Below are positions 12,351 through 63,400 of a stretch of 64,000 bases of DNA, in pieces. A program made the position numbers and the translations under genes. The stretch spans positions 12,498,687-12,562,686 of the forward strand of contig NC_061072.1 in NCBI RefSeq assembly GCF_021917145.1, read 5' to 3'. How positions within the stretch are numbered: position 1 is the first letter of the stretch; every line of letters starts with the position of its first letter. Under the pieces are notes generated by a model. It did not search any database and was not told the origin of the DNA. It worked only from the letters and a program-made list of their open reading frames with translations. Source of the DNA: Hypomesus transpacificus (taxonomy: Eukaryota > Chordata > Actinopteri > Osmeriformes > Osmeridae).

Positions 12351-12541
12351 CAGGGGTGTCGAACTCCGGTCCTCGAGGGCCGCTGTCCTGCATGTTTTAG
12401 ATGTTTCCCTGCTCCAACACACCTGATTCAATTAAAAGGGTTGTTATAACGACCATTCATTCGAATCAGGTGAGCTGGATCAGGGAAACATCTAAAACAT
12501 GCAGGACAGCGGCCCTCGAGGACCGGAGCTCGACACCCCTG
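12351..12541. mobile_element. hAT-type MITE, 191 bp, with 8-bp target duplication
   Basis: The element starts CAGGGGTGTC and ends GACACCCCTG. The terminal inverted repeats extend about 60 bp, through CCTCGAGGGCCGC and GCATGTTTTAGATG, so the DNA can fold into a long hairpin. It is flanked by perfect copies of GTCTAAAC at 12343-12350 and 12542-12549. An 8-bp duplication and CAGGG-type ends are the hallmarks of non-autonomous hAT elements. The family is common in teleost genomes. It has no coding capacity. Confidence 0.92.
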
Positions 12542-25495: not shown

Positions 25496-31272
<5,777 letters not shown>

Positions 31273-50152: not shown

Positions 50153-56726
<6,574 letters not shown>

Positions 56727-57406: not shown

Positions 57407-60400
57407 CTAGGGGTGTAGGGAGGGTTGTAGGCTAACAAAGCTGTAGTTATACGTGTCTGGCAGGCCCTGGTGCACAGTGAGGTTGAAGCGCGACCAGGAG
57501 AAGGGGGGTAGACCCCCCTGAGTGGTTGGACCATTCACCGCCTCCGCTGCCAACTGACGAGCCATCTGGTAGTCTGTCACCTGAAAGGAGGAGGAGAGGA
57601 GAATAGGAAAAGCAGGTTCTTGTTAGTATTATGGCATTCCCACCTGCCATGCGGAACAAAACACTGATTCCAATGAGAATTTCAGGGACCCTCTCAGGAC
57701 AATACAGGACAGGACATGTAGTGTCAGGACTGGTAAAAAAAAAAAAATGTCACAGAGGTAAAAATTGTTTCATGAACAAATTTCTTAAACTGGAACTCTG
57801 ACCTTGGTGTCATAGCAACCTCCAGGACATGGTATTTTCAGCCTCAGGTCGTTACGGCAACATATGGTTTTACAGGGATGTCGCTTGGAGTATGGGTCCC
57901 TCTTGTAGTCTGAAATGATATGTCACAATCCCCGAGTCACACACTCACACACACCACCATCCCAACCCGGTAACACCTACTGTTGTATCTCATGATGCGT
58001 TTGAGGGAGGTGAGGCTGGTGACTCTGCCCTGGTCTCTTCTAAAGATCTTAGCTCGTGAATTGAGGTCATAAGAAAACTCCTCTCCATGTCTTTGCTTCA
58101 TCACTCCGTAGCCACTCAGGGTGTAGATGTCCGTATGGAATGGCACGTTATAGGACGGCCAATAACCTATCAGAGAGGAGAAGTTCTTTCCATGAATACA
58201 TGTTATGCAATTTATGTACTCATTCATTGACAGTTAAAATAATAAACATTATGAAGAACATGCTTTTAATGACATACACAATATTAAAATTAAGTTAATT
58301 ATTTTGTTAATCTAGATTAGTTTACATTTTGCATGCAGTTATGTGTCTAGCTCAATCTCCAGCTGTACCTAGCCTCAGGGCCTGGGATTGGTCAGAGTGC
58401 AGCACCAGTCCAGGGATTTGTTCCACCACCATCAGAGCACCTTCACTGATACTCCGACCTAATGAGACCTGCTTCAGGTCCAACACCATGTACTGGCTGT
58501 TATAGGTTCCTACAAGGAAACATGGACACATTGTCATAGGATTCTACCAGGAAGGTTGGGCAATCTATAAGGGGTTTATTTGGAGTAGCATACTGGTTGT
58601 TCTGGGTTACTAAAAGGAACTTTAACAATCAATGCTTTCGATCAGAGAACGGGGGTACTAAGAAGACTATTGCACATATGAGAATAACAACCAATTTCAT
58701 GTCATTATTTTATTCATATGGTTTGTATGACTCAAAATAAATGTCGTCTGGATGCCAAAATAGAAAACCATTGACCACACAGGAACATTCGGCATGACAA
58801 CACCATCATGCTCCCAGCCTGTCCCTGCTGCACCCAGTCATAAACAGCAAATAGCAGGATCCTGGGAGGCACTGACAGTCTGCATCTCCCTCTTAGCTGG
58901 AACACACTGTGTCGTTCCTCCTTAGCAACACGCTGTCTCTTCACAGACTGAGCTTGTTAACACTCTGAGAGAGCACAGCTAATATGATCTGTTATGTTAT
59001 ACGGATGAAGTGAGCTGGTTGAAGCTTTGTTATAGATCCGTTTACACTGCCAATCCTTCCATAGAGATGGTTCAAAGTGTGCTGTTGTAGTGTAGGGCAC
59101 ATTATATTATTATTATATCATACATACAGTATTGTATTCCCAGCCAGCCATACACGCACGCCAGTCCTCACCTGAGTTGTACCTGGAGAAGATCCGTGCC
59201 CATTGCTTCCCTGTGTTTGCCAAGGCGTGAGCTAGCCTCACCCTCTGCCACGCCAATAGGCTATGTGAGGTAACCCGGCGGAACAGAGAGGTGTTGAACA
59301 CACTGTTGGTGGTTTGTGTCATCAGCAGACCACTGCCCAGGAGGTAGAAGTCATCCAATGACATCAGACAACCTGAGAGGGAGGAGATGGAGAGTGGGAA
59401 GACTTCAAGCTGTATTTTGGCTTAGTCAGGACACCTCCTGACCCCAATCATTAAACACAACACCCTTACGCTCTCAGTAAGTAGAGCACAACAGGAGCTG
59501 GGGGGTTGATATAAACTCTCTTGAAGCGCTGTAGTTAAACTATTTTAATGTAGCAAGTTCTGCACGAAGAGATAACCCTGTCTGCTTAGCTCTAAAAATA
59601 GCATTTCAAGCCACTTTTGTTTAATGGTACTGGGCCCCTAAGAGGATTTTTTTGGGTGGTAATGGATGTTGGCAAATCTTTAATAACAACATACCATCCA
59701 CTGTCAATCAAGAACTGGGCAACCACAAAACACAGTGTTTTTGGTTCTCAGAGTCAGATTTAATACTAATCCTGTGGAGTTATCTATGGAAGCAAATCGT
59801 GACCAAAATTCAAATGAAAATGCATTTCCAGAAATGCATTTTCATTTTAAGAATGTGGCTGCATTATTTGACTCATAAATCAAATTAGTATTCAATCATC
59901 CTATTTGCATTTTCATTTTCTTCTTTAAGACTGCTCATTCTTTCCCTTAATTAAAATGAAAACGAAAAAGACATTTGAAATTTAATTTTCAAAATATGCC
60001 CCAGCAAATAGATACCAAAATTCAATTTGAAATGTAAAATTTGAAAATGAAAATGCATTTCCAGAAATGCATTTTCATTTTAAGAACGTGGCTGCAAAAT
60101 CGTGACCACAATTCAAATTCAAATGCATTTCCAGAATTGCATTTTCATTTTCAAGAACGTGGCTGCAAAATCGTGACCACAATTCAAATTCAAATGCATT
60201 TCCAGAAATGCATTTTCATTTTAAGAACGTGGCTGCAAAATCGTGACCACAATTCAAATTCAAATGTATTTCCAGAAATGCATTTTCATTTTAAGAATGT
60301 GGCTGCATTATTTGACTCATAAATCAAATTAGTACTGATTAGTACTGAGCGGACATTGCATTTTCATTTTCATGTTCTGCCCGCAAAGAACTGCCCATAA

Positions 60401-63400
60401 TTCGAAAACGAAAATGCATTCTGAGCGGCGCAGTAGAGTGACGTCAGTAGCCGCTCTTCTTCAGCTCCCTGCTGACGAGCTACCCATCTTGTTCGGTAGG
60501 GGGCGGTGTGCACATACGCATTGCATTACATGACAAATGTGCCGGGAAATTGATTGAATTGCCGGGTCTTTAGAGGACGCATCACAGATCATGGCGCTCC
60601 CTCAAATTGTGCAGACACTGATAGAATTAGCTGAGCTGGTAGAAACTAATAATATATCTGAGTCTGATGCCCGTGACCGAGTAGAACAAGTCACAGAGAG
60701 CTTGGCTGCATACTCTGCCGTCACAGACGTACACATTAATGAGGTTGCCATAGTAAACCTCTCTTCAGTCCTGGAACGGCTGGATGCTGTGGTGGAGCCT
60801 CAAATGGGACGGGGACGACCAACCATCCACATCCCGTTCGAGTCCATCGAAAACTATTTATTAAATGGTCTACTTTTTCCTGTGAAAGCAAGCTGTTTCA
60901 CCTTTGGCCTGGTTCAGACAAAATCTGAATTTCCGCAATCTGAATTTGAATTTCCGCAATCTGAATTTCATGAATCTGAATTCCTGCAATCTGAATTTTA
61001 GAATGTTTTATTTTTGGATCAAAATAATTCAGTTGTATTAAATTTGGCATACAAATAATTCAGATATTATATATTCAACAGCAATATATTTCAGTTTTAT
61101 GAAATTCGACACACAAATATTTCAGATCTTTCATATTCAAATTCAGATACTTTTGTCAGCTTTCTAGCTCCATAAATCCGTTGCTTTGGATCCTCCGACG
61201 GATGGTCTGGTGGCCGACAACAGCTCCGCTATGTCCTTTATTTTTAAACCATTTAATAAATAGTTTTCGATGGACTCGAACGGGATGTGGATGGTTGGTC
61301 GTCCCCGTCCCATTTGAGGCTCCACAGCATCCAGCCGTTCCAGGACTGAAGAGAGGTTTACTATGGCAACCTCATTAATGTGTACGTCTGTGACGGCAGA
61401 GTATGCAGCCAAGCTCTCTGTGACTTGTTCTACTCGGTCACGGGCATCAGACTCAGATATATTATTAGTTTCTACCAGCTCAGCTAATTCTATCAGTGTC
61501 TGCACAATTTGAGGGAGCGCCATGATCTGTGATGCGTCCTCTAAAGACCCGGCAATTCAATCAATTTCCCGGCACATTTGCCATGTAATGCAATGCGTAT
61601 GTGCACACCGCCCCCTACCGAACAAGATGGGTAGCTCGGTCAGCAGGGAGCTGAAGAAGAGCGGCTACTGACGTCACTCTACTGCGCCGCTCAGAATGCA
61701 TTTTCGTTTTCGAATTATGGGCAGTTCTTTGCGGGCAGAACATGAAAATGAAAATGCAATGTCCGCTCAGTACTAATCAGTACTAATTTGATTTATGAGT
61801 CAAATAATGCAGCCACATTCTTAAAATGAAAATGCATTTCTGGAAATACATTTGAATTTGAATTGTGGTCACGATTTTGCAGCCACGTTCTTAAAATGAA
61901 CATGCATTTCTGAAAATGCATTTGAATTTGAATTGTGGTCACGATTTTGCAGCCACGTTCTTGAAAATGAAAATGCATTTCTGGAAATGCATTTGAATTT
62001 GAATTGTGGTCACGATTTTGCAGCCACGTTCTTAAAATGAAAATGCATTTCTGGAAATGCATTTTCATTTTCAAATTTTACATTTCAAATTGATTTTGCA
62101 GCCACGTTCTTAAAATGAAAATGCATTTCTGGAAATGCATTTTCATTTTCAAATTTTACATTTCAAATTGAATTTTGGTATCTATTTGCTGGGGCATATT
62201 TTGAAAATTAAATTTCAAATGTCTTTTTCGTTTTCATTTTAATTAAGGGAAAGAATGAGCAGTCTTAAAGAAGAAAATGAAAATGCAAATAGGATGATTG
62301 AATACTAATTTGATTTATGAGTCAAATAATGCAGCCACATTCTTAAAATGAAAATGCATTTCTGGAAATGCATTTTCATTTGAATTTTGGTCACGATTTG
62401 CTTCCATAGTTATCTTCTTTGAAAGTGCTTTTGAGTTTAGGATTACACCTAATCCATACAGCACATTCGGGCAAACCTGCAGTACATTTATCAATTTCAA
62501 GATTGGATACTTATAAAGAGTGGATTAAGCAAGAAGGATTCACATCTAATTTGATTCAACCACCAGATATGTTGAGATACAAATGTTGCTATTATTTAAT
62601 TGCAGAGGTTTCAATTTAACTTCTAACACTATATATTGGTTCAGACCTGTCATTTACCATGAATCAATGTTGGATGTTTATTCATATATGGCATCAAATA
62701 TAAATTGGGGCGCAACTTTGTATGGTGCTCTGCTCCCAAGGTCACATAGAAAAACAAAGTGTCACAATCAGCAGTTAGGTAAGGGTGCCAAAGAGCCCCA
62801 CCTGAGCTTATGAATGCAGCCTGGAGCCTTGAGACTTAGTATTGTTGTCATTAGAAGACAACTGTTGTTGTTTCCACTATCATTATTATGCAAACCCATT
62901 ATGACTTTGTTTGTTGAGCTACTGCTGTTCCTGTACCTGGGTAGCTGCTGAAAGACATCCTTCCTGTAGCTGTGTGTTTATCTGCCAGCCTGAAGTCCCA
63001 GTGTTTGTATATGCGCAGGGTGGCAGCATAAGTGTACCAGCTGGAGTGGGCAAACAGAAGGTTCTCAAAACCTGGCAGCACCTGGCACAAGAAATGACGA
63101 AAGGCAGAAACAAGGAAAGAATAAGGAAATGGAGGATGGGAGTGATCAACAGAGGAAAGGAGGAAAGGAAAATGGAATGGAAGGATGAGAGGAAGGGAGA
63201 TTTAAAAAGAAGGAAAGAAAGAAAGGAACATGGATGAAACACTTGACTTATACATCATCTCTTTTACATGAGAATACCACCCCACCTCCCCTTAACATTC
63301 ATGGACTCTACTGGTCTAGTAGACTGCCCTCACCAGGGCAGACCCTGGAGCCAAATGGGTTTGACCCCTGACCTTTATGAGAGCAGAGCAGTGGCCCATG

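Follow-up and report, generated by a model that had tools for sequence, protein, structure and literature searches.

The window, a stretch of 64,000 nucleotides from Hypomesus transpacificus (contig NC_061072.1), contains exons in which aconitase, PHF5 and BTB_2 (KCTD-like) domains were recognized, as fits a vertebrate. Upstream of the BTB_2 open reading frame, about 3.06 kb from its start codon (position 56726, minus strand), lies an element of 2,624 bp that occupies positions 59785–62408, has the termini TATGG...CCATA and is bordered on each side by the target-site duplication GTTATC (59779–59784 and 62409–62414). The preliminary description of this region placed a foldback transposon at 59779–62414; the element is real, but the span given for it takes in the duplications, which lie outside the element proper. 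The first 15 bases of the two ends are identical, and this 15-mer occurs within the window, with up to two mismatches allowed, only at these two ends; at least two matches were obtained in one of 100 shuffles. Neither the end 15-mer nor a blastn comparison of the element and its centre with the rest of the window (threshold 1e-3) revealed a further copy in the window.

The element is built from two arms, a left arm of 1,088 bp (59785–60872, plus strand) and a right arm of 1,164 bp (61245–62408, minus strand) that is an inverted copy of the left arm with one extra unit of 78 bp. Alignment of one arm with the other in reverse orientation shows 1,080 identities over 1,085 aligned base pairs (99.5% outside insertions and deletions), with one of the five mismatches falling at the innermost edge, where the homology ends. 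The 82 gap columns of this alignment (78 + 1 + 3) reflect the 78-bp unit and a single base that the left arm lacks and one codon that the right arm lacks. The longest run of exact inverted identity at the element is 318 bp, in which one base of the duplication on either side matches by chance, and 27 of the 28 exact inverted segments of at least 25 bp that remain in the window after low-complexity filtering lie at the element, the other one being a small MITE. Outside the duplications, the left flank and the reversed right flank agree at 58 of 200 positions, and the mirror symmetry ends at the element. Each arm is organized, from the end inwards, as the terminal sequence, an array built from the terminal sequence, a promoter-like block and 93–94 codons. 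With its long inverted repeats, internal tandem repeats and little sequence between the arms, the element belongs structurally to the foldback type, and the arm alignment and end comparison confirm the palindrome with a clean GTTATC duplication and TATGG...CCATA ends that had been noted earlier.

Internal comparison delimits a terminal unit of 79 bp (59785–59863, plus strand) that from about its tenth base onwards resembles the units of the internal array, with 96% identity over 97 bp to the innermost unit. Tandem-repeat analysis locates the array at 60051–60307 in the left arm (plus strand, units of 70–71 bp) and at 61808–62142 in the right arm (minus strand, units of 70–78 bp, one unit more than on the left). 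Counted between sites of the marker GTGGCTGCA, the left array has three full units (70–71 bp) and the right array the same three together with one of 78 bp. A short near-palindrome is present in every array unit as ATGCATTTCCAGAAATGCAT or a variant, and the block ATTATTTGACTCATAAATCAAATTAGTA is found in two copies per arm. The outermost terminal sequence is itself an internal array unit, so that each arm has several copies of a possible transposase-binding end. By analogy with Galileo, for which the available part of a study of its THAP domain reports the repeats as added binding sites (PMC3688188), the repeated terminal units may offer additional binding sites for the transposase.

The inner portion of each arm holds the beginning of an open reading frame, the 5' coding part, which comprises 94 codons on the left (60591–60872, plus strand; MALPQIV...ENYLLNGL) and 93 codons, with one valine codon fewer, on the right (61245–61523, minus strand). 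Within this coding part the arms differ in length only by a multiple of three. Each of the remaining five frames of the left coding stretch contains three to eight stops, in keeping with the earlier proposal of about 93 coding codons in both arms, and the frame stayed open in 10 of 2,000 single-base shuffles, a weak test in which base composition alone is preserved. The start codon, with A at position −3 and G at +4, is preceded by a promoter-like block, detected by pattern scan at 60439–60590 in the left arm (plus strand) and by arm alignment and pattern scan as the same block at 61524–61676 in the right arm (minus strand), which contains TGACGTCA and a second motif that we take to be a CRE and a GC box, respectively. 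TATA[AT]A and CCAAT were absent from the sense strand of the arm in the pattern scan. The observed-to-expected ratio of CpG is 1.0 over 60355–60590 compared with 0.4 for the window, and this stretch is also richer in G+C.

Searches of Pfam and NCBIfam with the two open reading frames, of which the right one has 119 residues, identified no model at the cut-off; below the cut-off, the best Pfam matches of the intact frames were to unrelated entries (DUF5830, E values 0.036 and 0.074; phage terminase, E value 0.19). Among solved structures, two chains matched with E values of 0.3 and 0.42 and were dismissed as chance. We infer that the gene starting in the arms is that of a transposase.

The sequence ...ENYLLNGL is common to both sides. 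Beyond position 60872 the left frame enters non-homologous sequence, whereas the right side shows a coding continuation of about 86 bp (61159–61244, minus strand) that reads KIKDIAEL and then proceeds in a shifted frame; three-frame translation and the comparison of the two sides thereby bear out the earlier observation that coding extends past the arm end on the right and not on the left. Since the right reading frame passes the point at which the left one breaks off, and does so without an intron, the arm end lies inside coding sequence rather than at an exon edge, and the suggestion that the arms carry a first exon is not supported. With an X placed at the frame shift, the right-side stretch produced six Pfam matches (four HTH and two sigma-factor entries; best E value 0.011), all below the cut-off. 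Its first 30 residues alone gave no Pfam match, and the stretch joined without a spacer gave one (E value 0.15) versus none in nine shuffles, a control that covers the joined version only. NCBIfam gave no match to this HTH-like stretch. The frameshifted stretch is read as a putative helix-turn-helix remnant on the basis of a weak likeness that falls short of proof. The span between the arms measures 372 bp and contains, next to the coding continuation, a centre of 286 bp (60873–61158) that is AT-rich and internally repetitive and has no homology to the arms. Tandem repeats of 15–30 bp and of 62 bp are visible in this centre.

The available portions of the published family descriptions give TA..TA ends and usually 6-bp duplications for IS3EU (PMC10045372) and TAYGG..CCRTA ends with 'TIRs longer than 30 bps' for fungal IS3EU families (PMC12730594). 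The TATGG..CCATA termini fit both end patterns, and the 6-bp GTTATC stands on both sides of this one copy; the IS3EU-like ends and duplication length recognized earlier are in agreement with the signature as given in those portions (PMC10045372; PMC12730594). A table of four teleost genomes, in the part of the report at hand, has one IS3EU entry with 17,838 copies, in a column taken to be that of zebrafish (PMC4746887). The element is like the IS3EU or GingerRoot group in its TATGG..CCATA ends and 6-bp duplication, and this group is listed for a teleost, but it is unlike the group in having 1.1-kb coding-bearing arms and no catalytic domain. IS3EU transposases are of the IS3/IS481-like DDE class; no catalytic domain was found in the element, the coding sequence of which ends before any such domain. 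A DNA-binding N-terminal region preceding the catalytic core has been suggested for IS3EU, although not as a defining feature, in the accessible part of the description (PMC10045372). Because neither a catalytic domain nor a relative was found, it is the ends and the duplication that assign the element to IS3EU. A search for relatives by peptide pattern returned 31 stretches from IMG/VR and 153 from GTDB, none of which was confirmed, and a 22-base array motif was absent from IMG/VR; these misses carry little information, since fish DNA is not expected in those collections.

The most probable explanation, and one in which we have reasonable confidence, is that the element is a young, non-autonomous IS3EU-type derivative in which the front end was copied onto the back end during break repair. 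The near-identity of the arms upholds the earlier view of a derivative with one end standing at both sides. Three of the five substitutions between the arms lie in full array units, and in each case the variant base is confined to one arm when compared with the other units (one on the left and two on the right), as expected of mutation after copying, which indicates that the copying was recent; the remaining two were not polarised. The element or its parent would have been cut out or broken inside, with a copy serving as template for repair of the break. At the left broken end, the front part of the template would have been copied inwards. The right broken end would have annealed to the front rather than the back end of the template, which could occur because both transposon ends share the terminal sequence, and would have copied the front part inwards for about 86 bp further. 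Copying would then have halted at different points, and the two products would have been joined by some 286 bp, either filler or older sequence left in place.

Break repair is supported by the unequal inner limits, with coding sequence reaching further on the right, and by the unrelated centre; against it stand the presence of a single copy only, with no full-length relative to show the normal length of the inverted repeats or the identity of the gene, and a coding part that has no Pfam or NCBIfam match at the cut-off. Abortion, slippage and template switching in gap repair have been put forward to explain defective Galileo copies (PMC4168063), and the uptake of fillers with microhomology at breaks has been described for animal TIR elements (PMC8277862), both in the available portions of these reports. 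Since the latter also considers internal breaks more likely than excision where there is a single copy (PMC8277862), repair after excision is not the sole possible source of the break. The GTTATC duplication does not discriminate between transposition of the two-fronted form itself and its formation in place. As the element has two transposon ends but no catalytic domain, it could move only with transposase from elsewhere; it should be unable to make a whole transposase and should be mobile only in trans.

A possible but less favoured account is that long array-bearing inverted repeats are normal in the family and that only the promoter-like block and coding start were added by gene conversion. 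That the terminal sequence is iterated in arrays, a feature shared with Galileo and Foldback repeats, is consistent with this account, as is the incorporation of spacer and ORF sequence into the repeats of Galileo copies reported in the accessible parts of PMC4168063 and PMC3573991. Nothing speaks directly against it, and the fungal wording 'TIRs longer than 30 bps', as it stands in the portion of the source at hand, leaves long ones possible (PMC12730594). This account overlaps with break repair and differs from it in extent and not in kind. It is unlikely, though consistent with near-perfect arms around a short centre, that a replication fork stalled in the front half and copied back, giving a hairpin-derived inverted duplication that was then transposed. 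Fork stalling and template switching have been proposed for animal TIR elements, according to the part of the report available (PMC8277862), but the 286-bp centre is no plain coding continuation on either side, so that a simple turn-round inside the gene is insufficient and a second event would be needed. A sequencing or assembly artefact, such as a fold-back read or mis-joined arms, is highly improbable and was rejected: long palindromes are error-prone, but the symmetry stops at the transposon ends, the flanks are unrelated (58/200), a 6-bp duplication surrounds the element and the arms are not identical, being distinguished by a 78-bp unit, one codon, one base and point changes.

A comparable structure is found in maize Mu killer, a MuDR derivative that, in the available part of its description, has TIRA and 1.298 kb extending into mudrA on both sides (PMC3440606). 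In both cases one end is duplicated in inverse orientation together with the beginning of a gene, that of the transposase in Mu killer and the element's own, probably also for a transposase, at the present locus. Mu killer differs in belonging to another superfamily and to a plant, and silencing of MuDR is reported there. Extended-repeat copies of Galileo in Drosophila likewise have long repeats of foldback type, contain tandem units and carry internal sequence in both repeats, with parts of the upstream spacer or ORF placed in both repeats in species that include willistoni (PMC4168063; PMC3573991), and recruitment of an ORF was called so far unique to Galileo by its authors in the portion of the text available (PMC4168063). 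Galileo belongs to the P superfamily, and the available portions of these reports describe no copy in which both repeats hold a promoter as well as a start codon. Foldback (FB) elements are alike in having long inverted repeats with internal tandem units, as far as the accessible parts of PMC8277862 and PMC3688188 describe them, the likeness being one of structure. In the part of the IS3EU literature covered, no report was found of a form with such coding-bearing arms, and 'foldback' appears there in a single paper, once, in its reference list; such a form may nevertheless be described in another paper, figure or repeat database. The preliminary statement that this architecture had not been seen described for an IS3EU-like family holds to the extent that no IS3EU case was found in that literature, but Mu killer and Galileo show the same kind of structure.

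The promoter-like blocks of both arms point to the same sense RNA over the coding part, and the RNAs from the two arms would become complementary only after read-through of the 372-bp central span. Contrary to the earlier expectation that transcripts from either arm would fold back, both transcripts would be sense, so that double-stranded RNA would require crossing of the centre. Polyadenylation-like hexamers, which are also expected by chance in AT-rich DNA, occur as ATTAAA on the plus strand at 61037 and as AATAAA on the minus strand at 61242 (in the coding continuation) and 61012. Folding prediction for an RNA that reads through from 60440 to 62408 pairs 428 of the 433 left-side positions with the right arm. 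This pairing and the structural parallel to Mu killer would suit an active silencer, with small RNAs from the read-through hairpin acting on intact relatives as in maize, but such a role is improbable: the arm RNAs are sense until past the centre, where the polyadenylation-like hexamers occur, and the available part of the Mu killer report proposes antisense transcripts, not the hairpin, as the main agent (PMC3440606). Slightly more doubtful still is the idea that the element plays in a vertebrate the part of Mu killer, as a two-fronted IS3EU derivative the hairpin of which, spanning promoter, start codon and DNA-binding part, would silence intact relatives in the germ line. Silencing by the element is possible.

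The element provides a clear example, seemingly a young one, of a cut-and-paste transposon in which a single end occupies both sides and the join falls within the gene. Should further copies exist, they would offer an animal test of the break-repair origin and of silencing of a parent family by two-fronted derivatives.

Two further features were observed elsewhere in the window. The small MITE at 12351–12541 is hAT-like, of a kind known from fish; it has the form CAGGGGTGTCGAACTCC...GGAGCTCGACACCCCTG, contains an exact inverted repeat of 48 bp and seems to be flanked by the 8-bp repeat GTCTAAAC. A run of 42 G residues is present at 29001–29042, shortly after the aconitase match.
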